A stretch of DNA of 42,293 bases from Bacillota bacterium (lineage in GTDB: Bacteria > Macinerneyibacteriota > Macinerneyibacteria > Macinerneyibacteriales > DSCS01). Positions 3,694-36,176 of this stretch are shown piece by piece; the stretch's first letter is position 1, and every line of letters starts with the position of its first letter. The DNA is taken from positions 1-42,293 of the forward strand of contig DSCS01000004.1 in NCBI GenBank assembly GCA_011048995.1, given 5' to 3'. The translations under genes were made by a program, and so were the position numbers. The notes beneath the pieces were generated by a model, which saw only the letters and a program-made list of their open reading frames with translations, was not told where the DNA came from and ran no database searches.

Positions 3694-3711
3694 AAGGCGG
3701 GAGGTAATCTT

Positions 3712-4080: not shown

Positions 4081-4101
4081 GGGAACGAGGAGGATTGAAC
4101 T

Positions 4102-5904: not shown

Positions 5905-5914
5905 GCATGATAAA

Positions 5915-5945
5915 GAGAGGAAGGAAGCTGCCACTTCTTCCTCTC
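5915..5945 (+). other. Intercistronic hairpin between the two NuoE/NuoF blocks
   Basis: GAGAGGAA-G-GAAG (5915-5927) pairs with CTTCTTCCTCTC (5934-5945), giving 12 base pairs with one bulged G and a 6-base loop. No T-run follows, so it is not a standard terminator. It lies in the only sizeable gap of the first half of the operon (5905-5970) and may be an RNA processing or stability element. Confidence 0.6.
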
Positions 5946-5970
5946 CGATAAGACTGAAAGGGGAGATGGT

Positions 5971-6432: not shown

Positions 6433-8060
6433 GCCTGATAACAAAATATGTCTTGATCAGTATAGATGAAGATACACTTATCGCCGGTGCCAGAAAAGTC
6501 GAAACGGAATTGAAACGCATTTTAGAGGAATTGGATCTGTCACGGGAGATCATGGTCGTAGAGACAGGGACCATGGGTATTATGGGCAAAGGTGTGGTCA
6601 TTCTGATCCAGCCTGACGATGTGACCTATGTCAATGTGACTCCTGAGGATGTCCGTGAGATCGCCAACGAGCATTTGCTGAAAGGGCGCCCGGTTAAACG
6701 TCTGGAGTTTACGGGGAAAATCGATCAGAGTGTGATCTCTTTCAGGGAAACGGCTCAGGAGCTCAAAAAGCAGACCCGTGTGGTCTTGGGTAATTCCGGG
6801 CTCATTAATCCTGAAAGTATTGATGAGTATATCGCCGTAAACGGCTATGAAGCCCTGGGGAAAGCGTTGACGGAGCATAAGCCCGAAGAGATCATCGACA
6901 TTGTTAAAAAAAGCGGCCTCAGAGGCCGGGGCGGAGCCGGTTTTCCCACTGGACTCAAATGGTCTTTTACCGCCCCCCTGAAGAATAAACCTAAATATCT
7001 GGTCTGCAATGCCGATGAAGGCGAGCCGGGGACATTCAAAGACCGTTTGATTATGGAAGGCGATCCCCATAAGCTCTTGGAAGGAATGGCCATTGCAGCC
7101 TATGCCATCGGAGCAGAAAAAGGCTTTATTTATATACGCGGAGAGTATACCTTATCAATTAACAGGACGCAAAAAGCGATTGAAGATGCCAGAAAATACG
7201 GACTTTTAGGACAGGATATTTTCGGATCGGGATTTTCGTTTGATGTCGAGATCAAAAAGGGAGCCGGGGCGTATGTCTGCGGTGAAGAGACCGCCCTGAT
7301 CAACTCTTTGGAAGGGGGACGCGGCAATCCGCGTGTCAAACCGCCTTTCCCGGGAGTTCAGGGATTATGGCAGCAGCCCACAGTGGTCAACAATGTCGAG
7401 ACACTTTCCAATGTCCCTGCGATAATCCTTAACGGTGCCGATTGGTATAAATCCATTGGAACGGAAAAGTCTTCCGGAACAAAAGTCTATACGATTTTGG
7501 GCCATGTGCATAATCCCGGGTTGATAGAGGTCGAAATGGGAACGACCTTACGCGATATCATCTATAAATACGCAGGAGGCGTAAAAGGCGGAAAATTCAA
7601 GTGCGCCCTGGTCGGCGGTGCTGCAGGGGCTTTCCTCAATGAAGAAATGCTGGATGTGCGCATGGATTATGACCATCTGGGTGAATATAAAGCCGTTTTG
7701 GGCTCAGGAGCTATTCTTGTCATGAATGAAGAGAGCTGTATTGTGGATATGCTCCGCAACATCCTCTTTTTCTTTAAACATGAATCCTGCGGCAAATGCT
7801 CTCCCTGCCGGATCGGAACAGCGCAGCTGTACATGCTGGCGGACAAGATCTATTCGGGACAGGGGACGGACGAGGATCTGGATCAGATGCTGACATTGTC
7901 TGAAGCCATGAGCACGACGGCTTTATGCGCTTTGGGACAATCTCCCTATTTGGTGATTCACACCGCTGATAAGTTTTTTAAGGATGAGATAGAGGAGCAT
8001 ATCCGGAGAAAAGTATGCATGAAGGATATTTGCAGGATGAACGGAGCAGAGCACAAATGA
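6429..8060 (+). CDS. NuoF-like flavoprotein subunit 2, without N-terminal cluster or C-terminal ferredoxins
   Basis: The 543-residue protein has a complete NuoF core: GLRGRGGAGFPTGLKW (about 163-178), NADEGEPGTFKDR (194-206), and the [4Fe-4S] ligands C454, C457, C460 and C500. These motif versions resemble complex I/formate dehydrogenase NuoF more than bifurcating HydB. The thioredoxin-like N-terminus (1-95) is still recognisable, including HLLKGRPVKRLEF, but has no Cys; the position matching TGCMGPC reads TGTMGIMGKG. The double ferredoxin tail of NuoF-like 1 is absent. It should bind FMN and NAD(P)H and pass electrons through one [4Fe-4S] cluster to NuoE-like 2. It starts inside the NuoE-like 2 stop. 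Whether it joins the same complex or forms an alternative one with HydA cannot be told from sequence. Confidence 0.9.
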   Translation: MSLITKYVLISIDEDTLIAGARKVETELKRILEELDLSREIMVVETGTMGIMGKGVVILIQPDDVTYVNVTPEDVREIANEHLLKGRPVKRLEFTGKIDQSVISFRETAQELKKQTRVVLGNSGLINPESIDEYIAVNGYEALGKALTEHKPEEIIDIVKKSGLRGRGGAGFPTGLKWSFTAPLKNKPKYLVCNADEGEPGTFKDRLIMEGDPHKLLEGMAIAAYAIGAEKGFIYIRGEYTLSINRTQKAIEDARKYGLLGQDIFGSGFSFDVEIKKGAGAYVCGEETALINSLEGGRGNPRVKPPFPGVQGLWQQPTVVNNVETLSNVPAIILNGADWYKSIGTEKSSGTKVYTILGHVHNPGLIEVEMGTTLRDIIYKYAGGVKGGKFKCALVGGAAGAFLNEEMLDVRMDYDHLGEYKAVLGSGAILVMNEESCIVDMLRNILFFFKHESCGKCSPCRIGTAQLYMLADKIYSGQGTDEDLDQMLTLSEAMSTTALCALGQSPYLVIHTADKFFKDEIEEHIRRKVCMKDICRMNGAEHK

Positions 8061-8074
8061 AGTGCAGCTCTGCT
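8045..8074 (+). other. Intercistronic hairpin before hydA
   Basis: AGCAGAGC at 8045-8052 and GCTCTGCT at 8067-8074 are perfect inverted repeats. An alternative fold pairs GCAC (8051-8054) with GTGC (8062-8065) and keeps TCTGCT as the outer stem. The stop codon of the preceding gene (8058-8060) lies in the loop, and no long T-run follows. Confidence 0.5.
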
Positions 8075-8111
8075 TTAAACCATAGGAATTTACGGTAAGG
8101 AGGATTTGATT

Positions 8112-9899
8112 ATGGCTGAAATGGTCAAATTGTATATCGACGGCACAGAGGTGGAAGTTCCCGAGGGGACAACCATTTTGAATGCAGCCAAAGAGGCCGG
8201 GAAAAATATTCCCACATTGTGTTATCATCAGGATCTGCCCCCGACGGCCGCTTGTGGCGTTTGTGTTATTGAGTATGAAGGGCGCCCGGGTATGCAGAGA
8301 GCTTGTTGTACACCGGTGGCTCCGGGAATGAAGGTCATTACCAATTCTAAGACTTTGAGAGAACGCAGAAAAGCCGTAATAGGCCTTATTCTCTCTAATC
8401 ATAATGTGGACTGCCCTTCTTGCGCAGCCAATGAAAAATGTGAACTGCAGAAACTGGCCAATGATTTAGGTGTGGATATGCATATGTACGAGAAGATCTT
8501 AGATCACAGGCCTGAGGACAAGACCAGTGTCGCCATCGTCCGCGACCCTGACAAATGTATTCTTTGCGGCCGCTGCGTGACTGTCTGTGATGAAATACAG
8601 ACAGTGCATGCGATCGAGATTGCAGACCGCGGATTCGATGCCCATGTGGATACCGCTTTTTCTGCGGGTATGGGAGTCAGCCCCTGTGTCAATTGCGGCC
8701 AGTGTATCGTTTATTGCCCCACCGGCGCTTTGCGTGAACAAAGCCATCTGGAGGCGGTATGGGATGCTATTCTTGATCCTGAAAAACATGTCGTCGTTCA
8801 GGAAGCTCCGGCTATCCGTGCTTCAATCGGAGAAGAATTTGGCATGGAAATCGGATCCGTGACTGTCGGAAAAATGTATTCAGCGCTGAAACGCATCGGT
8901 TTTGACGCCATATTTGATACTAATTTTTCTGCGGACCTGACGATCATGGAAGAAGGGACAGAGCTTGTTCAGCGAATTCAAAAGGGCGGCAAACTACCCC
9001 TGATCACTTCCTGTTCACCGGGATGGGTCAAGTTTATGGAGACCTTTTTCCCGAACCTTGGGGAAAACACCTCAACGGCGAAATCACCGCAGCAGATGAT
9101 GGGAGCGTTGACGAAGACTTATTACGCGGAAAAGAGCGGCATCGACCCTGCAAAGATCGTTTCCGTCTCTATTATGCCGTGTACGGCGAAAAAGTTCGAA
9201 GCTCAGCGGCCTGAGATGAGGGATAGCGGGTATCAGGATGTGGATTATGTCCTGACCACACGGGAATTTGTCCGCATGATCCGAGAAGCCGGCCTTGATT
9301 TTAAAAACCTTCCTGAGGAAAAGCCCTACCATGCTTTGGCTGATTATACAGGTGCGGCGACGATCTTCGGTGCCACCGGAGGTGTTATGGAAGCGGCCGT
9401 CCGTTCTGCGTACTATCTTTTGACCAAAAAAGATATGAATAATGTCGATATTAAACCTGTGCGCGGCATGGAGGGAATCAAAGAAGCAGAATTGGAGATC
9501 CCCGGTGTAGGGAAAGTCAAAGTCGCCGTTGCTCACGGCCTCGGCAATGCCAGGGAGCTTTTAACGAAAGTCAATAAACAGCTGGAAGAGACAGGGAAAA
9601 GCGAATATGTTTTCATTGAGATCATGGCTTGTCCCGGCGGATGTGTCGGGGGCGGAGGACAGCCTTACGGCAGTTCCATCGCTATGAGGGCCCGCCGCGG
9701 CGAAGGACTCTATCAGGAGGACTCATCACTGCCTAAACGCTGTTCTCATCACAATGAAGCGATCCTGAACATCTATAAGGAGTTTCTGAGTGAACCCGGA
9801 TCCAAGAAGGCACACAAGCTTCTCCATACCAATTATGTGGAAAGAAGTGTTGTCTCCGGTGATGCCGTCAGAGAAATCACACATAAGCACGGACATTGA
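8112..9899 (+). CDS. hydA: [FeFe] hydrogenase catalytic subunit HydA (M3-type)
   Basis: I choose ATG 8112 (595 residues), 8 bases after AAGGAGG, over the TTG at 8106. The order is: an N-terminal [2Fe-2S] domain (C37, C48, C51, C65/66); a His-Cys [4Fe-4S] site (H97, C101, C104, C110); two [4Fe-4S] motifs (C149/152/155/159 and C192/195/198/202); and the H-cluster domain. H-cluster motifs are L1 TSCSPGW (299-305), L2 MPCTAKKFE (355-363) and L3 EIMACPGGCVGGGGQP (C507, C511). The enzyme makes or oxidises H2 using electrons from the NuoE/NuoF subunits. L1 has Ser where the common motif TSCCPxW has its second Cys. The tail AHKLLHTNYVER is typical of the family. It is the last gene of the operon, followed by a strong terminator. 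Confidence 0.95.
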   Translation: MAEMVKLYIDGTEVEVPEGTTILNAAKEAGKNIPTLCYHQDLPPTAACGVCVIEYEGRPGMQRACCTPVAPGMKVITNSKTLRERRKAVIGLILSNHNVDCPSCAANEKCELQKLANDLGVDMHMYEKILDHRPEDKTSVAIVRDPDKCILCGRCVTVCDEIQTVHAIEIADRGFDAHVDTAFSAGMGVSPCVNCGQCIVYCPTGALREQSHLEAVWDAILDPEKHVVVQEAPAIRASIGEEFGMEIGSVTVGKMYSALKRIGFDAIFDTNFSADLTIMEEGTELVQRIQKGGKLPLITSCSPGWVKFMETFFPNLGENTSTAKSPQQMMGALTKTYYAEKSGIDPAKIVSVSIMPCTAKKFEAQRPEMRDSGYQDVDYVLTTREFVRMIREAGLDFKNLPEEKPYHALADYTGAATIFGATGGVMEAAVRSAYYLLTKKDMNNVDIKPVRGMEGIKEAELEIPGVGKVKVAVAHGLGNARELLTKVNKQLEETGKSEYVFIEIMACPGGCVGGGGQPYGSSIAMRARRGEGLYQEDSSLPKRCSHHNEAILNIYKEFLSEPGSKKAHKLLHTNYVERSVVSGDAVREITHKHGH

Positions 9900-9923
9900 A
9901 GTTAAAAAAAAGACGATGAAAAG

Positions 9924-9951
9924 GGGCGGCTTTAAGGCCGCCCTTTTTTTT
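9924..9951 (+). terminator. Rho-independent terminator of hydrogenase operon
   Basis: GGGCGGC (9924-9930) and GCCGCCC (9937-9943) form a 7-base GC-rich stem with a 6-base loop, followed by eight T (9944-9951). It lies 25 bases after the hydA stop. On the minus strand it follows the stop of the small ORF at 9950, so it may work in both directions. Confidence 0.9.
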
Positions 9952-10306
9952 ATTTCTGTTGATCAAGAAAAAGAGTAAAAGAGTGAATGAGAACCGGTTT
10001 GGCGCTTTCCCATTGAAAACGGTCTCCGGGATCAGGGAAAATCAAAATTCCGAATTGACGGGAGACAGCCTTAAAGGTTTCCCGGCGAGCCGCTCCCGCC
10101 GGAAGATTGCCTGTTCCGGTCAGATAGGACCATCTTTTCCCGAATATTTCACAAAAAAGAGCCGTGCAGGAATATTCTTCCGAAAAAAGCCGAGTAACAG
10201 TGCGAATAAAGGTGTCAAAATCCGGGCTTTCACAAGATGTTCTTTCCAGCCGCTTATAAAAAGAGGTCACGTTCGCCCCCGGAAACACGGGTGTAGTATT
10301 CTTCAA
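9950..10306 (-). CDS. Small protein downstream of hydG, unknown (possibly GAF-like)
   Basis: This 118-residue ORF begins inside the 3' end of hydG (53-base overlap if ATG 10306 is used; a shorter start is possible) and stops right at the shared terminator. That placement suggests a real last gene of the hydG transcript. I recognise no family. The alternation of strand-like segments, a central GTGNLPAG turn and an FGILIF...PVLIHSFTLFL end vaguely recalls the C-terminal half of GAF domains, but this is weak. An overlapping plus-strand ORF (9959-10432) is the competitor and has no ribosome binding site that I can see. Confidence 0.45.
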   Translation of the reverse strand: MKNTTPVFPGANVTSFYKRLERTSCESPDFDTFIRTVTRLFSEEYSCTALFCEIFGKRWSYLTGTGNLPAGAARRETFKAVSRQFGILIFPDPGDRFQWESAKPVLIHSFTLFLDQQK

Positions 10307-11753
10307 ATTCTTTTAAGAGAGGGTTATTGGCGAAGAAGGGGTCTTTATGGATCTCGTCGATCTCTTTCTTTATCAGCGCTTCTCCGATCTTTTGCGTTTC
10401 GGGAGAAGAAAAATCATCAAGCCATTCTCTGAATGTCAGAACAGCATTTAATTTACAAAATTTACCCTCTGTTCCGCATTTGAGCAAGCCCATGATCTTG
10501 TCCCCTGTTCTTCCGCATCGATAACCGGCTGTGCAAAAGGAAGAGATCATCCCGAGTTCTGCCAATTCACGGACAACATCGTCTAATTCACGGGTATCAC
10601 CCAGCACAAATTGCTGACGGTCCTTTTCCTGACGGTCATACTGCTCAGAATAAGCTCCTAAACCGATACGTGTTGATGCGTCAGTCTGTGTGCAGCCCAG
10701 CTTAATGACTTCTTTGCGTAATTCAGGCCGCTCCCGGGCTGTAATGATCATGCCGGTGTAGGGAATAGAGAGGCGGAGGACTGTCACAAGATGTTTGAAA
10801 TCATCATCAGAGACGAGATGTTCCGTATGTTCAGAATAGGGCGCATTATCAGCGGGCATTAACCGGGGAAAGGAAACGGTGTGAGGACCGATCCCGTCAA
10901 ATTTCTCTTCCAGGTCGATAGCATGATACAACAGGCCCATGACATCATAGCGCCAGCGGTAAAGCCCGAAGAGAGCTCCGATCGCCACATCATCAATGCC
11001 CGCTTCCATGGCTCTGTGATGAGTATAAAGACGCCACCGATAGTCAGATTTTGGTCCTGTGGGATGCATCTTCTGATAAGTGGGACGGTGATACGTCTCC
11101 TGAAAGACTTGAAACGTGCCGATTCCTGCTTTCCAGAGTTTTTTAAAATCTTCAATAGAAAGGGGAGCGGCATTGACATTGACCCGACGGATCGAGCCTG
11201 TGCCTTTTCTTGTCTTTTCATTGACTTCGTAGATCGCTTTAATTGTCTCTGCCATATAATCGGCATCGGAAAGCGGGTGTTCGCCGTAAACGGCAATCAA
11301 ACGTTTATGGCCCATTTTGACCAGGGCCTGTGCTTCTTTACGGACTTCATCTGGTGTAAGGACGCGTCGTTTTTCATGCGTATTGTCTTTTCTGAACCCG
11401 CAATAGAGACAGTTGTTCACACAGACATTGCTGCAGTAAAGGGGGGCAAAGATGACAATGCGATTGTCATAGACTTTCCGTTTTACTTCAAGAGCTGCTG
11501 CTGCCATCTCTTCACGGAGCTCTTTATCCCGGACGTGAAGCAGAGCCGCTGTCTCATCAGGGTCGAGACGCTGGATAGAGAGAGATTTTTGGATAATATC
11601 GCGTATCTTTATTTTATCCGGATTTTGATTTTGGCTCAAATGACTTTCGATGGCCTCATGATCAATAAAATCCTTTCCGCTGTCCAGATAACGGTCAATT
11701 TCGTCGTTTTTGACAACATCATCCGCCCATTCCTGTACGCTCTTTTTTCCCAT
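10254..11753 (-). CDS. hydG: HydG, radical SAM tyrosine lyase for H-cluster maturation
   Basis: This 499-residue protein has the length and sequence of HydG, which cleaves tyrosine to provide CO and cyanide on an Fe synthon for the [FeFe] H-cluster. The radical SAM cluster ligands are C111, C115 and C118 in CVNNCLYC, followed by GFRKDNTHEKR. The ThiH-like barrel continues through FQETYHRPTY and MGLLYHAIDLEEKF. In the C-terminal domain the auxiliary-cluster region reads FCTAGYRCGRTGD and ends KFCKLNAVLTF. The usual pattern I know there is CTACYR, so the second Cys is Gly here and a new Cys lies three residues later. A strong AAGGAGGG site precedes the ATG. It has its own promoter and is separate from hydE; hydF is not in the window. 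Confidence 0.95.
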   Translation of the reverse strand: MGKKSVQEWADDVVKNDEIDRYLDSGKDFIDHEAIESHLSQNQNPDKIKIRDIIQKSLSIQRLDPDETAALLHVRDKELREEMAAAALEVKRKVYDNRIVIFAPLYCSNVCVNNCLYCGFRKDNTHEKRRVLTPDEVRKEAQALVKMGHKRLIAVYGEHPLSDADYMAETIKAIYEVNEKTRKGTGSIRRVNVNAAPLSIEDFKKLWKAGIGTFQVFQETYHRPTYQKMHPTGPKSDYRWRLYTHHRAMEAGIDDVAIGALFGLYRWRYDVMGLLYHAIDLEEKFDGIGPHTVSFPRLMPADNAPYSEHTEHLVSDDDFKHLVTVLRLSIPYTGMIITARERPELRKEVIKLGCTQTDASTRIGLGAYSEQYDRQEKDRQQFVLGDTRELDDVVRELAELGMISSFCTAGYRCGRTGDKIMGLLKCGTEGKFCKLNAVLTFREWLDDFSSPETQKIGEALIKKEIDEIHKDPFFANNPLLKEFEEYYTRVSGGERDLFL

Positions 11754-15993: not shown

Positions 15994-18648
15994 ATGGATG
16001 AGAAAGGCCTGGCTCTTCCTTCCTTTATGTCTTATTTCGTGGATCTCTCTCCGGATCCTTTCTGTATTACCGATAACAACGGACGGCTTCTTCGTGTCAA
16101 CAAAAGATGGGAAGATTCCTTCGGAGCTTTGAAGCAGAAGATGGAAGAATCTCTTTTGACGGATGATGTCCATCCCGATGATAAAGAGAAAACAGCATCA
16201 GTTCTTTCCATGTTAAGCCCGGATTGCTCCACGTCATCTCTCATTAACCGTTTTCGGCATCAAAAGAGTGGCTATCGCTGGACAGAGTGGCGGTTGCTGT
16301 TTCATGAGGGTTTCATTTCCGCATCAGCCAGAGATATCAATGCCCATATAGAATCCCATGAAGAATTGCAGTGTTTCAGGGATGTCCTGGACAGCAGCTT
16401 AAATGAGATCTACCTGGCCCATGCCGACACATTCACTTTTTCTTTTGTCAGTGCCGGTGCACTGGCGAATTTGGGGTATCGGTTAGAAGAGATGTATGCA
16501 ATGACGCCATTTGACATTAATGCCCCTGATCAAAAAAAGGATTTGGAATCGCTTTTTAAACGTCTGAAAGGGGGAGATGCGAAAAAGTTGCTCTTTGAGA
16601 CAGAGCATTATCGAAAAGACGGCTCGGCCTATCCCGCTGAAGTCTATTTGCAATATATTTCCGAAGGGGACAGGGCCTTTTTTCTGGGGGTTGTCCTGGA
16701 TGTCACAGAAAAGAGACAATGGAAAAAATCTCTGGAGGAGAGTGAAGAGCGTTATCGACGCCTCACAGAGCAGGCTCTTGACATTATTTACCGTATTGAA
16801 CTCATCCCTGAAAGGCGATTTGTCTACATTAATCCGGCTGTTGAGAGGATAACGGGATATACGCCTGAAGAGCATTACAGGGATCCGGATCTGGGTTTAA
16901 AAATCGTTTTCGAAGAAGACCGGCCGTTGTTGGAAGCTGCCTTAAAATCAAATGATATCTTCAGCCGGCCTCTTCGGGTAAGGTGGAAGACCAAAAAAAA
17001 GCAGATCATCTGGACAGAACAGCATAATGTCCCTTTATATGATTCGGAGGGAAAACTTATAGCCATTGAAGGGATCGCACGGGATGTGACTGACCGCATG
17101 GAAATGCTCGAGGCCCTGAATAATGAGAAAAAACGGCTTGAAGTGACCCTTTTCAGTATAGGGGATGCCGTTATTGCCGCTGATAAACAGGGGCGCATAA
17201 CATTAATCAACCCGGTGGCAGAACATCTCTTGGGTGTGCTTCGTAAAGATGTCTTGGGGTCACCTGTGGATGATTATGTCATTATCGTCGATGAGGAGAC
17301 CCGTGAGCCTGTAACAAGTCCTGTCACAGATGTGATTCAAACCTGTAAAGCGGTAGAGTTAAGGCCACCCTGTTGCCTGATCAACAGTGAGGGAGAACAG
17401 AAGCTTATTGAATCGGGAGCTTACCCGATTAAAAATGAAGATGGCCTTTTAACAGGGGTTGTGATGATCTTTCGGGATATATCTCAAAAGTGGGCCATTC
17501 AGGAGCATTTGATCAAGACTCAACGGCTGGAATCCCTGGGCCTTCTTGCAGCACGGATCGCTCATGATTTCAATAATCTATTAAGCGGGCTCTTCGGCTA
17601 TGTGGAGATTGCCGCGGGGGCGGTGAGGCTGGGTGATCGGGATAAAGGATTAGCATATTTGGAAAAGGCCGCAGGGGTGTACAGCCGCATGAAAGGTCTC
17701 ACAGGGAAATTTTTAACTTTCTCTAAAGGAGGAGGGCCCGTCAGAGAAAAAGGGGATTTGTCTCTGTTGATCCGAGAGGTTTTAAAAAACTCCTTAAAAG
17801 AGGAAAAGGTGTCCGTTGAGTTTCGAGTCGATTCTGATCTGCAGCCTTGTGATTTCGATGAAGGCCAGATCCGTCAGGTGTTGACTAATATTGTTTTAAA
17901 TGCTGTGGAAGCGATGAAGGGGAAAGGGGAGTTGAAGGTTGAAGGTTCGAATCTTTCCGTCGATACGGACTCTCCGCTCCCCCTGACTCCCGGGCCTTAT
18001 ATTGCTGTACGTATCAGTGACAACGGGGAGGGGATCCCTTCTCATTATATCAAAAAAATATTCGACCCCTTTTTCACCACAAAGAAGAACGGAAGCGGAT
18101 TGGGGTTGGCCACGGGCTATTCAGTCGTGAGACAGCATGGTGGAGACATTCAGGCCGAGTCTGTTTTGGGGGAAGGAACAGCGGTCACAGTTTATCTGCC
18201 TGCCTCCTTCGGGCCGGTTGAAAAAAAGAATACGGATCAAGAGGAACTATTCTGTGGCCGGGGAAGAGCCTTGGTGCTTGATGACGAAGAATTTGTGCGT
18301 GAAGTGACGGCAGAAATGCTTCAGAACTTTGGCTTTGTGGTCGATGAAGCTGAAGAGGGAGGGCGTGCGCTCCGCATGATCAAAGCCGCTGCGGAAAAGG
18401 CTGACTCCTATTCATTGATCATTGCCGATTTGACTATTCCTTCAGGCCGGGGAGGGAAGGAAATCATCGATGAGATTCGTGTTGTGGATCCGGATGTCGC
18501 TGTTGTGGTTTCCACAGGGTATTCCGATGACCCCGTTTTAAATCATCCTCAAAATTACGGTTTTTCGGCAGGTCTGCATAAACCCTTTACGACAGAAGAG
18601 CTTAGCCGTGTCCTTAAAGCGGTTTTTCTTCAAGAGGATGGATCGTGA
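15994..18648 (+). CDS. Soluble multi-PAS hybrid histidine kinase with receiver domain
   Basis: The protein has 884 residues and no membrane segments. Four PAS-like domains come in order at about 8-110, 125-245, 255-370 and 380-495; typical ends are VVLDVTEKRQ, IARDVTDRME and MIFRDISQK. A HisKA domain follows with phospho-acceptor H524 in RIAHDFNNLLSG. The HATPase domain has an N-box in NIVLNAVEAM, a G1 box in DNGEGI, and FDPFFTTK and GSGLGLATGY. A C-terminal receiver (about 755-880) keeps VLDDEE, phospho-acceptor D812 in IADLTIP, the Ser/Thr in STGYS and Lys in HKPF. All catalytic residues look intact, so this should be an active cytoplasmic sensor. It could respond to redox or a small ligand. 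It ends 19 bases inside the convergent hydE gene. Confidence 0.93.
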   Translation: MDEKGLALPSFMSYFVDLSPDPFCITDNNGRLLRVNKRWEDSFGALKQKMEESLLTDDVHPDDKEKTASVLSMLSPDCSTSSLINRFRHQKSGYRWTEWRLLFHEGFISASARDINAHIESHEELQCFRDVLDSSLNEIYLAHADTFTFSFVSAGALANLGYRLEEMYAMTPFDINAPDQKKDLESLFKRLKGGDAKKLLFETEHYRKDGSAYPAEVYLQYISEGDRAFFLGVVLDVTEKRQWKKSLEESEERYRRLTEQALDIIYRIELIPERRFVYINPAVERITGYTPEEHYRDPDLGLKIVFEEDRPLLEAALKSNDIFSRPLRVRWKTKKKQIIWTEQHNVPLYDSEGKLIAIEGIARDVTDRMEMLEALNNEKKRLEVTLFSIGDAVIAADKQGRITLINPVAEHLLGVLRKDVLGSPVDDYVIIVDEETREPVTSPVTDVIQTCKAVELRPPCCLINSEGEQKLIESGAYPIKNEDGLLTGVVMIFRDISQKWAIQEHLIKTQRLESLGLLAARIAHDFNNLLSGLFGYVEIAAGAVRLGDRDKGLAYLEKAAGVYSRMKGLTGKFLTFSKGGGPVREKGDLSLLIREVLKNSLKEEKVSVEFRVDSDLQPCDFDEGQIRQVLTNIVLNAVEAMKGKGELKVEGSNLSVDTDSPLPLTPGPYIAVRISDNGEGIPSHYIKKIFDPFFTTKKNGSGLGLATGYSVVRQHGGDIQAESVLGEGTAVTVYLPASFGPVEKKNTDQEELFCGRGRALVLDDEEFVREVTAEMLQNFGFVVDEAEEGGRALRMIKAAAEKADSYSLIIADLTIPSGRGGKEIIDEIRVVDPDVAVVVSTGYSDDPVLNHPQNYGFSAGLHKPFTTEELSRVLKAVFLQEDGS

Positions 18649-19733
18649 TTTTTCAGGCGATTATGAAAGTGGGGACTGTCTCCCCAGGCATCATAATGGA
18701 CTTCTTCGCCTAAGGCCCTGACGGTTTTTTCAAGATTTTGGCGTTGCACAAAGGCATTTTCATCCATTCCCGGTTTATTTTGATAAAGTTGATATCCCGT
18801 CCGGTAAGCTAAATCCGTGACATTAGGCATAATAATATTAGCTCCGGCCCGTAAGCCCATTTCACGCCCTGTGGGCGAGAGGGCCTGAAGGGCGGTGGTC
18901 GCGGCGATGTTGATATCCTTCATGACGATCCTCACGGCGGCGATCATCTTCAATCCCAAAGAGAGCTGTCTGACAGGATCAAAACCTGCGGTTTCGGAGA
19001 ATAGAGGAGTCTGGTTATGAGGGATATAAGGCCCCATACCCACCATATCGGCGTCAGCCTCTTTGAGAAAAAGGACATCTCCGGCCATATCATCGATTGT
19101 CTGTCCCGGAACGCCGATGAGAAATCCTGTGCCGACCTGATATCCGCTATCACGCAATGAATGAAGGCATTGCTTCCTCTTTTCCCAGGAATGCCCCGCC
19201 GGGTGAATTTTGGAATAAAGCGCAGGGTTCGAAGTCTCTATTCGGAGCAAGTAGCGATGTGCTCCTGCTTCAAACCAGCGTTTGTAGGTTTCCAAACTTT
19301 GCTCTCCAACAGAAAGGGTAATGCCCAGCCGTCCTTGAGAAAGGTCCTTGATCTTTATAAGCAACCGCTCTATTTTATCCACAAAGGCCGCATCGCTGCG
19401 TTCCCCTGATTGAAGGACGAGGGAGCCGTAGTGATTATCATGACACCACCGGGCTTCGCGGAGGATCTCTTCATCCGTCAATTCATACCGTGTCACGTTT
19501 GAGTTGCTTTTACGTATTCCGCAATAGTAGCAATCCTTTGTACAAATATTTGAAAATTCGATGATTCCGCGAAAATAGACAATACGTCCGACTTCACGTG
19601 ATTTGATGTGATACGCATAACGGAAAAGGTCCTGCTCTTCTTTCGGTGTAAGGGGAGATAAAATTCTTTTCAGATCAGACAGTTGAGGCTCATGTTCAAG
19701 TCTTTTTAATACACTAAGAAAAGAATTTCCCAT
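18630..19733 (-). CDS. hydE: HydE, radical SAM H-cluster maturase
   Basis: I take ATG 19733 (367 residues), which follows GGGAAGG, instead of an upstream TTG. The radical SAM motif is CTKDCYYC (C64, C68, C71), with the HydE-typical IEFSN before it and GIRKSN after it. Further family features are LQSGE, TLSVGE, ETSNPALYSKIHP and GMGPYIPHNQTPL. HydE works with HydG and HydF to assemble the dithiolate bridge of the [FeFe] H-cluster. The optional C-terminal auxiliary-cluster cysteines are absent, as in many HydE proteins. The gene is distant from the hydrogenase operon and converges on the hybrid kinase gene with a 19-base overlap. Confidence 0.94.
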   Translation of the reverse strand: MGNSFLSVLKRLEHEPQLSDLKRILSPLTPKEEQDLFRYAYHIKSREVGRIVYFRGIIEFSNICTKDCYYCGIRKSNSNVTRYELTDEEILREARWCHDNHYGSLVLQSGERSDAAFVDKIERLLIKIKDLSQGRLGITLSVGEQSLETYKRWFEAGAHRYLLRIETSNPALYSKIHPAGHSWEKRKQCLHSLRDSGYQVGTGFLIGVPGQTIDDMAGDVLFLKEADADMVGMGPYIPHNQTPLFSETAGFDPVRQLSLGLKMIAAVRIVMKDINIAATTALQALSPTGREMGLRAGANIIMPNVTDLAYRTGYQLYQNKPGMDENAFVQRQNLEKTVRALGEEVHYDAWGDSPHFHNRLKNHDPSS

Positions 19734-19828
19734 AACCGCCTTCCCTTTTTTCAACCATAGCGTCAGGCAGAAGAAAAATCAAGAAATATATTATAGCCAA
19801 GCTAACAATATAGGATCTTTCTCTGTAA

Positions 19829-29206: not shown

Positions 29207-30743
29207 AACGATGAAAGAGATCAATGAGCAGGCCCATGTCCGTGAGGGGCTTCATATTTTTATGGAGGAGTTTTCCCGTAAATATGGTTTAAAATCCTGT
29301 TCTCTCTTCAACAGCAGTGATAACGCGGTCTTTTACTCAAAAAATGTATCCGGCCCGTTACCCTATGAATTGATTCTGAGAAAAAACGGCCTTGAAGATG
29401 TGCGGCTGTTCCTGGATAAGGACCCGGCCTCGCTCTTCTCTTCTCCGGAATCCCAGACAGACCTTCAATTTCTGAAATCCGTCGTTTTAAATCATCTTTT
29501 ATACCGATCTGTTCTACGGATTTCCAAAAGCCGGATGCAAAAAAAGAAAGAAGTCGAAACGCTGATGGAGATCTCCCGTGAATTGATATCGCTTCACAAT
29601 GAGGGCAATATCCTTAATGCCCTCATCTTTGCCATCATGGGACAGGTCATGGTCACCAAAACGGCCATTTACCTCAATGAAGAAAACCGTTTCCCCTTAA
29701 AGATTGCCAGGGGATTTAAAAAACTTCCTCATGAGCTGAGTATGGTGAAGACATTAAAAAATATTCTGGATTTAAATGAGCGTCGTGAATTCCTGATGAA
29801 CCCTGACATGAATGAGATCTATCAGGCGGGCGGTGCCCTTATCGTTCCTATGCAATACCAGAGCTCGATCACAGGCTATATTGTCCTGGGGTATAAAACC
29901 GACGGCCTGACCATTCCCCGGACAGAGTATGATTTCCTTTTTTCACTTGCCGCTAATGTCGCTTTTGCCCTGGAGAACTCAAAACTGATCCGTGAATCGA
30001 TTGAGAAAAAGCGGATGGAAAGTGAGCTTAGCCTGGCCCGGGAGATTCAAAAAAATCTTCTACCCAAAGATCTGCCTCAAATCCGGGGATGGGAGATCTG
30101 GGGGACCAATATCCCCAGCCGTGAAGTCGGCGGAGATTATTACTTTGTCCGCAGGGTGAAAAACAAGATCTATATTGCTGTTGCCGACGTCACCGGGAAA
30201 AGCGTTCCGGCGGCCCTTCTTGTTTCAACTCTTCATGCTGCTTTGTTCGTTCTTTCTGATCTGGAAATGACATTGCCGGATCTTGTCAGTGACGTGAATA
30301 ATTTGATCTGCTCCAGCACCGATCCGGAACAGTTTATCACGTTTTTTATTATGGAGTTGGATACCGCCAGTGAGATGATGACCTATATCAATGCCGGGCA
30401 TAATCCGCCCTATTTGATCACATCATCAGGGCAGCTCTTCGAATTGGAAAAAGGAGGGCTCCTTTTGGGGGTCAAGCCCCATATTGATTACGAGAGCGGC
30501 TCTTTTGCTTTTGATGAATTTGAATCGCTTCTCTTATTCACCGATGGGGTGACAGAAACGATGAATGCTTCCGATGAGGAGTACGGGGAAGGACGACTGA
30601 AAGATAATATTCACGCTATGAAAAAGGCCTCGGCTGCAAAATGGGGAGAATCCCTTTTAGATGAAGTCCGGCAATTCAAAAATTCCTCGGTACCGCAAGA
30701 TGATATTACGGTGGTCGTTGTGAAAAAAGGGGATTCGCCTTGA
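29199..30743 (+). CDS. Cytoplasmic GAF-SpoIIE phosphatase
   Basis: Start ATG 29199 (514 residues), nine bases after GGAAGG, overlaps the previous stop by eight bases. Residues 1-120 form a GAF-like sensor, a second GAF lies at about 135-285, and a coiled coil leads into a PP2C/SpoIIE domain. That domain contains AREIQKNLLPKDLP, EVGGDYYFV, ADVTGKSVPAAL, NAGHNPPYL, LFTDGVTET and DDITVVVV. Unlike its neighbour it has no membrane segment. Two phosphatases with different sensors acting on one STAS/kinase pair would let a soluble signal and a membrane signal feed one switch. Confidence 0.92.
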   Translation: MHETMKEINEQAHVREGLHIFMEEFSRKYGLKSCSLFNSSDNAVFYSKNVSGPLPYELILRKNGLEDVRLFLDKDPASLFSSPESQTDLQFLKSVVLNHLLYRSVLRISKSRMQKKKEVETLMEISRELISLHNEGNILNALIFAIMGQVMVTKTAIYLNEENRFPLKIARGFKKLPHELSMVKTLKNILDLNERREFLMNPDMNEIYQAGGALIVPMQYQSSITGYIVLGYKTDGLTIPRTEYDFLFSLAANVAFALENSKLIRESIEKKRMESELSLAREIQKNLLPKDLPQIRGWEIWGTNIPSREVGGDYYFVRRVKNKIYIAVADVTGKSVPAALLVSTLHAALFVLSDLEMTLPDLVSDVNNLICSSTDPEQFITFFIMELDTASEMMTYINAGHNPPYLITSSGQLFELEKGGLLLGVKPHIDYESGSFAFDEFESLLLFTDGVTETMNASDEEYGEGRLKDNIHAMKKASAAKWGESLLDEVRQFKNSSVPQDDITVVVVKKGDSP

Positions 30744-31540
30744 GAGTCCGGGTCAATGAGATATGGAAAGAAGTGGCGGCGGGGACATCATTGTTCCGCT
30801 TAAAAGAGGGGTTGTTTCCAACGGCCGATGTTTTTATCCTCAATTCGTTTCCCGTACAAAAAGACCTGGCCTTGCAGGAAGGAGATGAAGTCGTCTTGAT
30901 TGAACGGGGGAAGCGCTATTCTTCCGATGAATTGAACCGCCTCCTTTCAGCCCGGCATTCTCCGGGTGTTCAGGAAAAAATCTCTCAGGCCGTTGTCGGT
31001 ATTGCCGGGTTGGGAGGGTTAGGTTCGACAGCTGCTCTGGCTTTGGCGCGGCTGGGTATCGGGGCTCTTGTGATAGCTGATTTTGATGTCGTTGAACCCT
31101 CTAACATCAACAGGCAGCAGTATTTTTTACGTCATATCGGACAATATAAAACTGAAGCATTGAAGGAAATGATTGCCGATATTCATCCGGGTGTCATTGT
31201 CCGAAGTCATATATTGAAGCTGACTCCGGAGACAATCCCCTCTGTTTTTGATGATGTCCCCGTTATTGTTGAAGCCCTTGACTCAGCCGATCAGAAGGAA
31301 ATGCTGATTCGAACGGTTTTAGGGGCCTGGGAGAAGACATCTATCATATCAGGTACGGGTATGGCCGGATACGGCCCTGCAAACGCCATAGAGACCGTAT
31401 ATGAAGGGCGCCTTGTCCTTTGCGGCGATCAGACGAGCGAAGCACGCCAAGGTTGGGGGCTTATGGCACCCCGTGTGGGTGTATGCGCTCATCATCAGGC
31501 GAATGCTGTTTTAAGGCTGATTATGGGGCTGGATCAATAA
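30740..31540 (+). CDS. thiF: ThiF-family adenylyltransferase with N-terminal ThiS-like domain
   Basis: This 266-residue protein uses TTG 30740, which overlaps the previous stop; AAGGGG lies before it. Residues 1-58 are a ThiS-like beta-grasp domain ending in VVLIERG without a terminal Gly-Gly. Residues 70-266 are the ThiF/MoeB/E1 fold, with the ATP loop GIAGLGGLGSTAALALARLG, ADFDVVEPSNINRQQYF and the C-terminal SGMAGYGP / GLMAPRVG-type segments. This arrangement is the clostridial-type ThiS adenylyltransferase, which activates the sulfur carrier for thiazole synthesis. No thiG, thiH or thiS lies nearby. Its place at the end of a partner-switching operon is odd. The 3' end overlaps the convergent folD-like gene by seven bases. 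Confidence 0.87.
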   Translation: MRVRVNEIWKEVAAGTSLFRLKEGLFPTADVFILNSFPVQKDLALQEGDEVVLIERGKRYSSDELNRLLSARHSPGVQEKISQAVVGIAGLGGLGSTAALALARLGIGALVIADFDVVEPSNINRQQYFLRHIGQYKTEALKEMIADIHPGVIVRSHILKLTPETIPSVFDDVPVIVEALDSADQKEMLIRTVLGAWEKTSIISGTGMAGYGPANAIETVYEGRLVLCGDQTSEARQGWGLMAPRVGVCAHHQANAVLRLIMGLDQ

Positions 31541-32499
31541 TGAAAGCGCCGTATGACTCCCGGAGGCAGCCCGGCATCGATCAGGTAATAGAGATTTGAG
31601 AGAAGGCGAAACAGGGTCATGTCATTGATCCGGTTGCCCTTTTCTGTCAGATTCCAGCGCGGAGCAAGGATTCCGGCTTTTTCTTCGATCAGGGGATATT
31701 CAAAATTTCCGTCAAAGGAGATATCGATAACAACGGTTCCGGGCCGGATATGGGATGACGGTATCACAAAATCCCCCGGTACAGCTGAGATAATAACATC
31801 GGAATTTTCACAAAGGGAGAGGACTTCTTTGAAGGGGGTATGACGATGGCATACCCGGACGGAGCCGTTTTCATTTAAAAGCATTAAAGCCAATGAACGC
31901 CCTACAGCCAGCGAATCGTTAATAATCGTGAAACGTTTTCCGGTAATGAAGAACGGGTTGTTCTGAAAACTGAGAGGATAGCGTCCCTCTTTAATTTTGA
32001 TCTCTTCATAGAGATGGGCATATCGTTTGAAGATATAAAGAATACCCTTGGCGGTCGGGGGGATGATCAATTTTTTCAGTTTCAACAGATCTTTGAATTG
32101 CTCAAACTGCACCAGATATCCCAGATGAGAATGGTGAAGGCCCTCCACATCTTTGGCGGGGTCCACAAGATTCATAAAGCGCGTGTCTTTTGTTTTAAAG
32201 GGAGTCGGATACATCACCATGATGCCGTGGATCTCCTCATTTTTATTAAGGTCATGAAGAATTTTTTCAAGCTGATGGCTGTCGGCACAGAAAAAAGACT
32301 GGAGATCGGCTTTTTGAGAATGGCAAAAGCGTTGTATGCCACGAAGATAAGAAAGTGACCCGGGATCCTCACCGGCCATGATCACAGCAAGTGTCGGAGA
32401 TATTCCCAAACGGGCATAGGCGTCCTGTCTTTTTCTAAATTCCGGAATGTCAAAATCTTTGATCAGGCGGGCGACATCGATGATTTTAGCGCTGTTCAC
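31534..32499 (-). CDS. Divergent FolD-like methylene-tetrahydrofolate dehydrogenase
   Basis: GTG 32499 (321 residues), after AAAGGGAG, is the better start. The FolD fold is clear: SYLRG near the N-terminus, DPAKDVEGL, a Rossmann segment SLAVGRSLALMLLNENGSVRVCHRHTP, and SDVIISAVPGDFVIPSSHIRPGTVVIDIS. Several active-site motifs are changed. The Lys of YxxxK, essential for cyclohydrolase activity, is Ile56 (Y52 is kept). The QLPLP motif reads VMYPTPF, and the end motif PGGVGPMT is replaced by NRINDMT. An extra insert lies at about 155-190. It may be a monofunctional dehydrogenase, as in yeast Mtd1, or have another substrate. It overlaps the membrane-protein gene upstream by 14 bases. Confidence 0.8.
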   Translation of the reverse strand: MNSAKIIDVARLIKDFDIPEFRKRQDAYARLGISPTLAVIMAGEDPGSLSYLRGIQRFCHSQKADLQSFFCADSHQLEKILHDLNKNEEIHGIMVMYPTPFKTKDTRFMNLVDPAKDVEGLHHSHLGYLVQFEQFKDLLKLKKLIIPPTAKGILYIFKRYAHLYEEIKIKEGRYPLSFQNNPFFITGKRFTIINDSLAVGRSLALMLLNENGSVRVCHRHTPFKEVLSLCENSDVIISAVPGDFVIPSSHIRPGTVVIDISFDGNFEYPLIEEKAGILAPRWNLTEKGNRINDMTLFRLLSNLYYLIDAGLPPGVIRRFHY

Positions 32500-32926
32500 G
32501 ACTTTTCTCCCTTTGAAGAGGAATGTCCATATCCCTGAGTAAATGCCCGGTGTAAACGAAAAAATCTCCCCGGGGAGTTTTGATGAATGTGGCAGGGAGG
32601 GGAGACCCGATGATTCCAAAAGGATAAGCTTCGTCGTTGATGTGCAGAGAATGGTCTCCGGTCAACGGAAGAGAGGTCCTGTTATGGCTGTAATCAATGG
32701 TTCTTAGCAGAGAATACTTTTCCGGAGGGATCGGATAGTCTTCGCCTGAAGAGTGGATGACGACACGGTCATTGCTGTTGAGTCCGGAGAAAGGATTTGG
32801 GGGGATCTTCTGATAGCGGCCCTCTGTAAAGAGATGGAAAAGAAAGAGAGCCAGCGCGATTCCCCCCATAAGAAGTAAGACATAGAAGGGGTTTTTCTTA
32901 AAGGTAAAATCAATCCCCATGGTCAA
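32486..32926 (-). CDS. Small single-span membrane protein, unknown
   Basis: This 146-residue protein has one hydrophobic segment (about 13-31) after a short Lys-containing N-terminus. About 110 residues of probably extracytoplasmic, strand-rich sequence follow, containing SNDRVVIHSSGEDYPIPPEK and FIKTPRGDFFVYTGHLL. I recognise no family. It overlaps the upstream sensor-kinase-like gene by four bases (ATGA-type) and the folD-like gene by 14, so it is a firm middle member of a three-gene operon. It may be a membrane partner of the sensor protein. Confidence 0.7.
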   Translation of the reverse strand: MTMGIDFTFKKNPFYVLLLMGGIALALFLFHLFTEGRYQKIPPNPFSGLNSNDRVVIHSSGEDYPIPPEKYSLLRTIDYSHNRTSLPLTGDHSLHINDEAYPFGIIGSPLPATFIKTPRGDFFVYTGHLLRDMDIPLQREKSREQR

Positions 32927-35208
32927 GGCATCATCAGTGTTATTGCCAGGCCGGAATTTGTTTCTCTGATGTCCAAAGCGCCGCCATGTGCTTTTGCGAT
33001 CTGAGCTGTTATATCAAAAAAGACACTGAAGCGGTCTGTTTGATGTTCCATGGTTCCCCGGACAGCAGTTGCCTGATATTCCGAAAGCGTTGTCAGGAGG
33101 AAAAACTGGCCGTTTTTATCTGCTGATTGAACTGTCAGCCGGGCTTTATCTCCTGCCGCCTGAGCCACAAACAAAAAGAGGTTAAAAAAGGCCAGACTCA
33201 TAAGAGTTTTGTCAAACTGCAGAGTGGGAGCATGTTTTAAATCGGCTTGAACACTGCAGCGTTTCTCCCGAAGGTCCTGTTTGACTAAGTCGAAACTTTT
33301 TTTAATATAGTCAATGATCTCTCCCTCTTCGATGTCAGGTGCAGTCTCTTTTCTGTAAAGGAGGATATCCCTGACAAGAAAATTGAGAGAAGTCAGTTCT
33401 TTACGCATATGAAGAAGCATTCTTTTTTCATTATCATCAAAGACCAACGGTAAAAGTGTTTTGATAAGTTTTCCGGTTCTGGAGAGAGAAGCGGCCATAG
33501 GAGCTGTTATAAATTCAGCTGCCGTGGAATCCGCCGTTTCTTCAGTTTTTTCCTGTAAGATGTAGTTTTCTTTCGTCAGCCGGTTGATCTCTGTTTCATA
33601 GCGTTTGATTGTCGATTCGGCTTCATGAAGGGCCATGGCTTTTTCATTGTTGAGTCCGCTCACGTCGGTCAGGGAGAAAAGAAGATCATATTGCCCCTGA
33701 TCGCTCAAAAGCAACGCGGTCGCTGAAAAGATAAAGGACCTGTCGTTGATAGACGCCTGGAAAGAGTGGCTTTTTCCCTCCCGGGCCGCCGTCTCTATCG
33801 GATCGGTATTGATCCCGGATTGGATCAAAAAATCAAGCATATTGAGGCCCTCTTCCTCGACAAGGAGCAGCGACCGGGCTGCATCGTTGACTTTTTTGAT
33901 CCTGCCGTCTTGTGTGGCCCAGATAAAGCCGACAGGGGATCTGTTAAATCCCTTTTCCGTATAGACTTTATTCCGGATAGCGTCTATACGGTCATGATGT
34001 AAGACAAGGACCTGTTTGAACAATTTCACGAAAATATCGAAGGTATCCAGTTTAATATGAGAAAGCTGGGATTTTGGAAGGAGTAGAATGGCATTTTCAT
34101 GTAGAGGATAGACGATATAAGCATGAATCGACGTATCCTCTTCATTAATGACAGAGGAAAGGTCGAATTCATCAAGCAGTGATTTTTCTTCCATGGAGAA
34201 AAGTTTTTCTAAATTGGGAGTCGAAGGAATCGTTGACAAGTCCAATCCGCGAAAATACAAAACCTGTTGGGAATCTTTGACGAAAAGGTGAAAACTTTCC
34301 ATAAGGAGTTCGTTAACCAGAAATGAAAGAAAAAACTGATATTGTTTAGAGGGGGTCTGCTCACGGGTTATGGTGTGAAGAGTCTGGCAGAAAGAGAGGA
34401 TCTTCTTTTTCTCCACGGAAGCTTCAGCGTAATCCTTTTGGGTGGAATCCAAAAAGAAGTTGATTCCTTCTTTAACATTTTTCAAAGGATCATTCCCCTT
34501 GATCTCAAACCTCAGGTCGGAATTGCCTTTCTGGATCTGTTCGAAGAATGATGTCAGCGAGGGGATATCTATGCGCCGTGTATTTCTGATAATCAGCCCC
34601 ACAGCCAAAAGGCCTAAAAGCAAGAGGCCTCCCTGGATAATCCATAAAGGATAGAGAAGCGGCCGGGCCAGCTGGCTGAGAACGATGCTGTATCCTGTTT
34701 CGTCCAAAGGGAGGGTACCGTAAACCATATCGGGGTTCTGTGACAGTTCACGGATGATCGGCTCGGGATTCCGGACAATGGCGGTGCGGGGTTGATAACG
34801 GGTCTCGACAAAAGACTTAAGGTCGATTCCGGTCTCAATCCGGGCTCCCCGGGGAAGAGAACGGGAAAGAACGAAGTCATCGGTCCGTTCTCCTGCTTTA
34901 TTGACCGGAACTCCGGAGGCGTCAATATACTCTAACCAAAGAAACTGAGACAGATTGCCTTCAAGAATACCGGAGATCTCGTCGGCATCAGTGCGGGCGC
35001 TCAAGGATTGGGCTAAACTGTCAACGGCATTCTCTTTAGCGACTAATCCGTTAAAAATGGCTTCATATTGACGGACAAGGGCTTGATTAACCTCCTGGCG
35101 GGCCTGATTCTTCCATTGATTGATTAAAAGAGGCTTTATTCTTTTTTCCGAATAAAAAAGCGCACAGCCGGCTATAGCCACAATAAAGACGATTTTAAGA
35201 TATTTCAT
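32923..35208 (-). CDS. Membrane sensor-kinase-like protein with degenerate kinase core
   Basis: The 761-residue protein has one TM segment near the N-terminus (about 4-20), an extracytoplasmic sensor domain (25-185) and a second TM (about 188-208). A HAMP-like linker, a helical/GAF-like region (260-410), a PAS-like domain (about 425-530) and a coiled coil follow. The C-terminal domain resembles HisKA/HATPase only in outline. No phospho-acceptor His motif is visible, the N-box place reads FFNLFLFVAQAA, and no DxGxG is found. The end, AQIAKAHGGALDI...SGLAITLMMP, still has the G2/tail look. It is probably a non-catalytic signalling protein. AAGGGGG lies before the ATG. Its partner regulator is not adjacent. 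Confidence 0.78.
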   Translation of the reverse strand: MKYLKIVFIVAIAGCALFYSEKRIKPLLINQWKNQARQEVNQALVRQYEAIFNGLVAKENAVDSLAQSLSARTDADEISGILEGNLSQFLWLEYIDASGVPVNKAGERTDDFVLSRSLPRGARIETGIDLKSFVETRYQPRTAIVRNPEPIIRELSQNPDMVYGTLPLDETGYSIVLSQLARPLLYPLWIIQGGLLLLGLLAVGLIIRNTRRIDIPSLTSFFEQIQKGNSDLRFEIKGNDPLKNVKEGINFFLDSTQKDYAEASVEKKKILSFCQTLHTITREQTPSKQYQFFLSFLVNELLMESFHLFVKDSQQVLYFRGLDLSTIPSTPNLEKLFSMEEKSLLDEFDLSSVINEEDTSIHAYIVYPLHENAILLLPKSQLSHIKLDTFDIFVKLFKQVLVLHHDRIDAIRNKVYTEKGFNRSPVGFIWATQDGRIKKVNDAARSLLLVEEEGLNMLDFLIQSGINTDPIETAAREGKSHSFQASINDRSFIFSATALLLSDQGQYDLLFSLTDVSGLNNEKAMALHEAESTIKRYETEINRLTKENYILQEKTEETADSTAAEFITAPMAASLSRTGKLIKTLLPLVFDDNEKRMLLHMRKELTSLNFLVRDILLYRKETAPDIEEGEIIDYIKKSFDLVKQDLREKRCSVQADLKHAPTLQFDKTLMSLAFFNLFLFVAQAAGDKARLTVQSADKNGQFFLLTTLSEYQATAVRGTMEHQTDRFSVFFDITAQIAKAHGGALDIRETNSGLAITLMMP

Positions 35209-35306: not shown

Positions 35307-36176
35307 TCAAATTTTACCTAAAAGCAAAGCGCGAATATCCGGATTTTTGCCTTTTCCCAAAGCGTAGACCGCTTTTCTGAGTATTTTTGCCAGTGTTGTA
35401 TCGGGAATATCTTTGAAGAGTTCTTCAGGAATCGTTTGCCCCACAGTAATGGATATACTTTGGGATTTTTTTTTGAAAATCTCTCTGGGGAGCATCAAAG
35501 CAGCCAATTTCTTATGAATCACAGTGGAAACATAGTAGATAAGAGAGTTTTTAGCATGTACGAACATGGGAACGATGGGGCAATGGAACCGCTTGGCAAA
35601 AAAGAAGGCCCCGGCCATCCACTTGGGGTCTTTCAGGCCGTCAGGCCTGAGACGGGACACGCCTCCGGCAGGGAAAAAGAGGACACAGCCGTTGTTCTTT
35701 AGTGTCCTCGAGATTTCACGGACTGTTGAAATGGGAATCTCATCAGATTTTTTACTGTAGGGGACAAAGATCCCCTTCAGATTATCGACGTTCATTAAAA
35801 GCTCGTTGACGATGATTTTTACATCATCACGGACTTCATGGATTACTTTGATCAGTGCAAGGCCGTCCAGCCCCCCCAACGGGTGATTTGCAATACCGAT
35901 GAAGGCCCCCCGGCGGGGGATATTGACCAGTTCTTTTTTCTTTACAAAAACATGAAAGTCGATGTCTGAAAAAAAGGCTTCGATAAAGTCGATATTCTGA
36001 AAATGCCGGAATTTTGTAAGGACATCATTGATATCGCGGATCTTTAAAAAGCGTTCCAGGAAACGGAAAAGCGCGTCTCTGATCCGGCCCGGAAGAGAAG
36101 CATAAAGTTTTGGTATGGCCTGACGTGCCAGATTATGTATATCGATAAATTTTTGTTTCAAAGGGATTCTCTTCAT
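35307..36176 (-). CDS. Lysophospholipid/glycerol-phosphate acyltransferase-like protein
   Basis: The 289-residue protein has the PlsC-type motifs of the hemolysin-like/OlsA-OlsB acyltransferases: IANHPLGGLDGLAL with the catalytic His and Asp, VNELLMNVDNLKGIFVP, and VLFFPAGGVSRL followed by WMAGAFFFAKRFHCPIVPMFV. There is no signal peptide and no strong TM segment, so it is likely a peripheral inner-membrane enzyme transferring acyl chains to a phospholipid or lipo-amino-acid precursor. The acyl acceptor is not clear from the sequence. GAAGGACC lies before the ATG. It is monocistronic with its own promoter. Confidence 0.88.
   Translation of the reverse strand: MKRIPLKQKFIDIHNLARQAIPKLYASLPGRIRDALFRFLERFLKIRDINDVLTKFRHFQNIDFIEAFFSDIDFHVFVKKKELVNIPRRGAFIGIANHPLGGLDGLALIKVIHEVRDDVKIIVNELLMNVDNLKGIFVPYSKKSDEIPISTVREISRTLKNNGCVLFFPAGGVSRLRPDGLKDPKWMAGAFFFAKRFHCPIVPMFVHAKNSLIYYVSTVIHKKLAALMLPREIFKKKSQSISITVGQTIPEELFKDIPDTTLAKILRKAVYALGKGKNPDIRALLLGKI

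Follow-up and report, generated by a model that had tools for sequence, protein, structure and literature searches.

Judging from its sequence, the FolD-like gene described here (Table 1) probably encodes a bacterial enzyme of the Mtd1 type, i.e., an NAD(H)-linked methylene-THF enzyme with dehydrogenase activity only. The gene lies in a 42,293-nucleotide stretch of DNA, which is referred to below as the window. Twenty relatives form one clade over four phyla in which the active-site substitutions are fixed, and this clade is rare and patchy in its distribution, occurring in scattered anaerobes. The initial annotation had proposed either a monofunctional dehydrogenase or an enzyme recruited to another job. 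Our analysis favours the first of these, while the second is unsupported, the substrate-side Tyr, Pro and Thr all being kept.

The gene and its operon

The frame of the Mtd1-like gene runs from 32499 to 31534 on the minus strand, a strand that the initial annotation had left unstated, and the plus strand contains stops in that frame. GGAG is found about 8 bases 5' of the GTG start, and the gene matches the window in base composition. The protein matches both FolD domains of Pfam, PF00763 (THF_DHG_CYH; E 7.8e-18, 65.3 bits versus a cut-off of 32.8) and PF02882 (THF_DHG_CYH_C; E 3.7e-18, 65.8 bits versus a cut-off of 27), and scores far under all cut-offs of the NCBIfam FolD equivalogs listed (best 116 versus 333 bits). 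Its AlphaFold2 model has a mean pLDDT of 81.9, with values below 50 at residues 131–141 and 284–291. These weak regions are the linker and the C-terminal loop described below.

The gene is the last of three co-directional genes whose neighbours almost abut or overlap, with the end of the small membrane frame (32486) running 14 bases into the start of the Mtd1-like gene. This bears out the layout described in the initial annotation, a single operon with a degenerate sensor kinase and a small membrane protein. "Degenerate" is a fair term, as a Pfam search of the kinase-like protein returned no HisKA and no HATPase match and the NCBIfam kinase matches were weak (best E 1e-6). No Pfam family was found for the small one-helix protein.

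On its other side, the Mtd1-like gene is met by a convergent gene for a ThiF-type adenylyltransferase with an N-terminally fused ThiS-like ubiquitin domain (30740–31540, plus strand). The two genes overlap by 7 bases, and a relative of the ThiF-type gene occupies the same place in loci L003 and L014. At 35307–36176 (minus strand), the window encodes an acyltransferase that is related, below the cut-offs, to GlsA and the N-terminal half of OlsF, proteins of ornithine/glycine lipid synthesis.

Table 1. Features of the window. Residues of the Mtd1-like protein are numbered from its GTG start.
Feature	Positions	Strand	Remarks
Predicted Mtd1-like methylene-THF dehydrogenase gene	31534–32499	−	321 aa, GTG start
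Small one-helix membrane protein, 144 aa	32486–32920	−	ATG at 32920; one hydrophobic stretch
Degenerate sensor-kinase-like protein, 761 aa, first operon gene	32923–35208	−	Stop at 32925–32923
Tyr51, equivalent to human MTHFD1 Tyr52, kept	32347–32349	−	19/19 members
Ile55, in place of the cyclohydrolase lysine (Lys56 in human)	32335–32337	−	Ile in 19/19 members with the residue
Met96, at human Gln100	32212–32214	−	Met in 18, Leu in 2 of 20
Glu119, at human Asp125 (KDVEG, as in yeast Mtd1)	32143–32145	−	Glu in 20/20
26-residue linker after KDVEG	32062–32139	−	17 in FolDs measured, 26 in yeast Mtd1
Asp195, at human Arg173 (NADP 2'-phosphate residue)	31915–31917	−	Asp in 20/20
KGNRINDMT, replacing the PGGVGPMT loop	31615–31641	−	

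Active-site substitutions

In bifunctional enzymes, Tyr52 and Asp125 are reported to bind folate and Lys56 to be catalytic together with Gln100 (PMC6443876, PMC3338484, PMC3368264), and human Arg173, His196 and Ser197 to bind the 2'-phosphate of NADP (PMC3368264). The initial annotation had noted that the Tyr is kept and the Lys replaced by Ile. Both points hold in our alignment, and only the number has to be corrected: the residue is Ile55, 56 being the human numbering. Its further statements, that QLPLP is replaced and that the C-terminal PGGVGPMT motif is gone, are equally correct, as the protein reads MYPTP and KGNRINDMT at these places. KDVDG has become KDVEG, with the pterin-binding Asp conservatively exchanged for Glu, as in Mtd1. 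The substrate-side Pro (Pro98) and Thr are each kept in 20/20 members, the position of human Ser197, which contacts the 2'-phosphate, is occupied by K, R, Q or E, and the GNRINDMT loop is invariant among 13 aligned members. One of the 20 aligned members is a partial gene, hence the count of 19 at the Tyr and Lys sites.

Could the protein still be a bifunctional FolD? Another residue or a water would then have to stand in for the lysine, the C-terminal loop having been rebuilt, and the gene would be no more than a paralogue with changed expression. The lysine has been reported as the general acid/base of the cyclohydrolase step (PMC3338484), and in the clade the PGGVG loop is replaced together with Lys, Gln and Asp, and these replacements are fixed in 19/19 or 20/20 members. 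The companion FolD, moreover, retains its Lys in 12/12 member genomes outside the Marinitoga order. We therefore regard this explanation as quite unlikely, even though the protein has both FolD domains intact and retains the folate-side Tyr, and a computational study doubts noticeable lysine catalysis in the dehydrogenase step and could not decide on the cyclohydrolase role of the lysine (PMC9173628). Lys56 is also reported as a possible aid to the dehydrogenase step (PMC6443876, PMC3368264), which means that its loss could weaken both activities.

Conservation and spread of the clade

A scan of bacterial genomes yielded 12 relatives of the Mtd1-like protein at 49–75% identity, one of them a partial gene. 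The closest relatives among named records belong to Candidatus Mcinerneyibacteriota, the phylum of the window, where 3/3 genomes contain a member. Members were further found in 8/31 genomes of one Bacteroidales family and in 8/38 genomes of the Marinitoga order. An order-level sample of Bacteroidales gave a match in 1/295 genomes, which was the centre genome itself. Six of the 392 Spirochaetota genomes passed E 1e-20, and one of them has a true member. The other five matches (73–86 bits) were ruled out as members, as they are canonical FolDs with the Lys, KDVDG and PGGVG. The spirochaete gene is split across the ends of two contigs (L013, L061). The plasmid search returned only FolD-like matches below 30% identity among the matches listed (15 of 230). 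Locus parsing dropped L027, L030, L038 and L040, of which L030 is a member counted as L007 and L038 and L040 each cover one end of the split spirochaete gene.

Compared with its nearest relative, the Mtd1-like gene has a dN of 0.17 and a dS of about 2.3, the latter saturated. The gene is under strong purifying selection and is not a decaying gene. As 19/19 or 20/20 members have identical or equivalent substitutions and dN/dS is about 0.17/2.3, neither chance nor sequencing error explains them. The FolD-like enzyme flagged in the initial annotation is thus real, and so is its loss of motifs.

Resemblance to yeast Mtd1

The initial annotation had named yeast Mtd1 as a protein to align, and Mtd1 turned out to be the top-scoring solved relative of the family. 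A profile of 13 relatives, searched against solved structures, found yeast Mtd1 (1edz) best, with 107 bits over one uninterrupted stretch, versus 98 bits over two stretches for the best FolD structure. In a local test, the clade profile gave Mtd1 111 bits versus a median of 69 for 13 FolDs, and a median of 75 and a maximum of 102 bits for 16 further Marinitoga-order FolDs. Mtd1 scored 96 bits with a FolD-only profile and 103 with a joint FolD profile, values not far under 111.

The linker after KDVEG has 26 residues in the window, in L004, in L063 and in Mtd1, versus 17 in each of the nine FolDs measured (two further FolDs were not parsed). In the phylogenetic tree, Mtd1 and 13 clade members were split from 24 FolDs with support of 95/99, in a set with long branches, including that of Mtd1, and with no eukaryotic bifunctional FolD. 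This set was thinned by 12 rows, includes Mtd1 in part (residues 11–293) and, like the other tree sets, excludes duplicates of one gene. The predicted fold matches FolDs (Z about 20–23) at least as well as it matches Mtd1 (Z 19.4).

Other FolDs in the member genomes

The initial annotation had suggested looking for a second, normal folD. The window's genome, which is 99.7% complete, contains exactly one other FolD, with the YxxxK lysine, KDIDG and PGGVG; the Gln position is Glu. All 20 member genomes (20/20) have a PF00763 gene besides the Mtd1-like gene. The Mcinerneyibacteriota FolDs L001 and L024 are otherwise canonical and have Glu at the Gln100 site (EQP), a residue seen there in 3/13 FolDs of the alignment. 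One Bacteroidales genome has a third PF00763 match (G009:C58:2719-3066, L027; 100 bits, 190-aa frame), which is perhaps a fragment or contamination.

The FolDs of the Marinitoga order form a case of their own. We examined 17 of them (L036, L133–L148), eight from member genomes and nine from the 30 non-member genomes, and the lysine is absent in 17/17, replaced by Gln in 13 and by Ile in 4. Asp125 is Glu in 16/17, PGGVG or PNGVG is retained, and four of these FolDs have the Ile/Met/Glu triad. FTHFS adjoins the FolD in all eight member genomes of this order, and an FTCD_C (cyclodeaminase/FchA-type) gene is present in 36/38 genomes of the order. Over all aligned rows, which are related and hence not independent events, Glu replaces Asp125 in 36/37 rows that have no Lys at the lysine site, and Asp125 is kept in 12/12 rows that have it.

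Genomic context

No neighbour gene is common to all phyla; the surroundings in Marinitoga, the gene order in Bacteroidales and the operon of Mcinerneyibacteriota differ. Names of context genes such as Kef, MreB and SMC were assigned by eye where they come without a family search. In the window's phylum, the overlapping three-gene operon is kept in 3/3 genomes, and it is absent from the examined loci of relatives in other phyla. L003 and L014 encode relatives of the kinase-like protein and have a small frame of similar size in the corresponding place. As it was seen in the window's phylum alone, the operon says little about the chemistry of the enzyme. The initial annotation was thus right that this is an odd place for a one-carbon enzyme, but the oddity is confined to one phylum.

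In the Bacteroidales, the order is metallophosphoesterase, Mtd1-like gene, usually a Kef-like transporter, and purH. The purH gene is found downstream in 6/6 Bacteroidales loci with sufficient flank, and FTHFS lies 9–11 kb from the Mtd1-like gene on the contig in 4/8 member genomes. These associations, which were established in member genomes only, suit folate metabolism. They weigh against recruitment of the protein as a folate- or NAD-sensing pseudo-enzyme, or as an enzyme for another substrate, that would work with the kinase-like membrane protein of the operon. The conserved operon of the window's phylum and the rebuilt C-terminal loop fit such a role, as does a 411-aa protein, sensor-like by eye, which is encoded directly upstream in one Marinitoga-order genome. 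However, partners of this kind are missing from the Bacteroidales loci and the other Marinitoga-order loci, and the substrate-side residues are conserved. Recruitment is accordingly an unlikely explanation.

A link to [FeFe]-hydrogenase maturation was considered in view of the position of hydF, which lies two genes upstream of the Mtd1-like gene in 5/8 Bacteroidales members. The enzyme would then tune the supply of methylene-THF for the aminomethyl-lipoyl H-protein that builds the bridge of the H-cluster, whose maturation is reported to be fed by methylene-THF, SHMT and T-protein (PMC11736057). HydF is also more frequent in members than in non-members of the Marinitoga order (8/8 versus 12/30; Fisher p 0.0026, uncorrected for kinship). 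In the Bacteroidales family, however, 19/23 non-members have HydF as well as 8/8 members (p 0.28, likewise uncorrected), and both in the window's genome and in the Marinitoga order hydF lies away from the Mtd1-like gene. Moreover, a dehydrogenase would drain methylene-THF. The seven non-member hydF loci had no phosphoesterase, transporter or purH in the stretch read, and in three of them (L151, L153, L154) hydF stands beside the same 1229-aa neighbour without an Mtd1-like gene. This suggests that the hydF link is a local arrangement. As HydF does not separate members from non-members in the Bacteroidales family and no hydF neighbour was seen in other phyla, we rejected maturation as the main reading and consider it highly improbable.

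The divergent pair of hydF and the gene for the 1229-aa protein was seen in L151, L153, L154, L156 and L157, i.e., in Bacteroidales both carrying and lacking the Mtd1-like gene. By eye, the 1229-aa protein combines a region resembling adenylate/guanylate cyclases with an HD region.

Proposed function and physiology

An Mtd1-type dehydrogenase would bind folate as FolD does, through Tyr51 and Glu119, and would pass hydride between methylene-THF and NAD(H), yielding methenyl-THF. The cyclohydrolase step would be lost, as the protein lacks the general acid/base lysine, the glutamine that partners it and the PGGVG loop. Methenyl-THF would instead be hydrolysed by the cell's canonical FolD or by an enzyme of the FTCD_C/FchA type. 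NAD+ specificity of the clade is predicted from the exchange of Arg173 for Asp in 20/20 members: as Asp195 replaces the NADP-binding Arg, NADP should be excluded, which would link the folate pool with NAD/NADH.

The gene content of the member genomes is consistent with this function. FTHFS is present in 19/20 and FTCD_C in 18/20 of them, and HydF is above the cut-off in 19/20, the remaining one scoring 305 versus 326 bits. The window itself contains an [FeFe]-hydrogenase cluster (3199–11753 and 18630–19754) with NuoE- and NuoF-like subunits, the hydrogenase, HydG and HydE. The hydrogenase was typed as NADH-dependent group A6, and hydF is on another contig. In these fermenters, the C1 units of glycine, serine or histidine may be oxidised with NAD+, and the 10-formyl-THF may be cashed in by formate-THF ligase, with ATP coming from FTHFS in reverse. 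The NADH would be reoxidised by the NADH-dependent [FeFe] hydrogenase and released as H2.

We tentatively extend this to a broader scheme, which we hold to be possible although less than even in likelihood. The clade may be the bacterial sister of fungal Mtd1, and perhaps its source; the type would then not have been born in fungi. The Ile/Met/Glu triad may be a repeatable route, seen again in four Marinitoga-order FolDs with a separate FTCD_C, and the enzyme may couple C1 oxidation to NADH for the [FeFe] hydrogenase. If the proposed function is right, the automatic label "bifunctional FolD" misdescribes the clade. NAD- and NADP-linked C1 steps would coexist, which would change the redox and ATP accounting of amino-acid fermenters. 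The set also supplies natural variants with which the separation of the two activities of FolD can be tested.

Comparison with known systems

The clade shares with bifunctional FolD and the D/C domain of MTHFD1 the fold, the Pfam domains, the Tyr, the Pro and the folate-side layout. It differs from them in the replacement of Lys56, Gln100, Asp125, Arg173 and PGGVG and in nine extra linker residues. The lysine-less FolDs of the Marinitoga order resemble the clade in the lost Lys, in the Asp125 to Glu exchange and, in four cases, in the shared triad. Unlike the clade, they retain PGGVG or PNGVG, a 17-residue linker and the Arg, they serve as the ordinary FolD of the cell, and they group with FolD in the tree, on the FolD side of the split.

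In acetogens, monofunctional methylene-THF dehydrogenases have been described biochemically, and these enzymes without cyclohydrolase are reported as NAD- or NADP-linked depending on the species (PMC9124964). The activity itself would therefore not be new. The enzymes of Acetobacterium woodii and Clostridium formicoaceticum are likened to the clade here by their described activity and not by sequence or kinship. The sequence type of the clade, with the linker of Mtd1, was not met in the searches made, and searches of open-access literature listed no title describing the bacterial Mtd1-like clade. One paper gives MTD1 "only cyclohydrolase function", contrary to the titles of the works cited there (PMC11064299), and its statement was given no weight here.

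The closest known counterpart is yeast Mtd1 (1edz, 1ee9), an NAD-dependent, monofunctional 5,10-methylene-THF dehydrogenase with which the clade shares its length, both domains, the kept Tyr, the lost Lys, KDVEG and the 26-residue linker, at 25% identity over the structure alignment. CDD includes a family for the cofactor domain of Mtd1. At the Lys and Gln sites, Mtd1 has Thr and Tyr; it retains the Arg and carries an insertion in its cofactor domain, whereas the clade has Ile, Met and Asp at the Lys, Gln and Arg sites and its own GNRINDMT loop. The two active sites are thus not identical, as Mtd1 keeps the Arg and differs from the clade at the Lys and Gln sites. Yeast Mtd1 works alongside multifunctional enzymes, and the members of the clade likewise occur in genomes with another FolD. 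The clade also allows a fungal enzyme to be compared with bacterial proteins.
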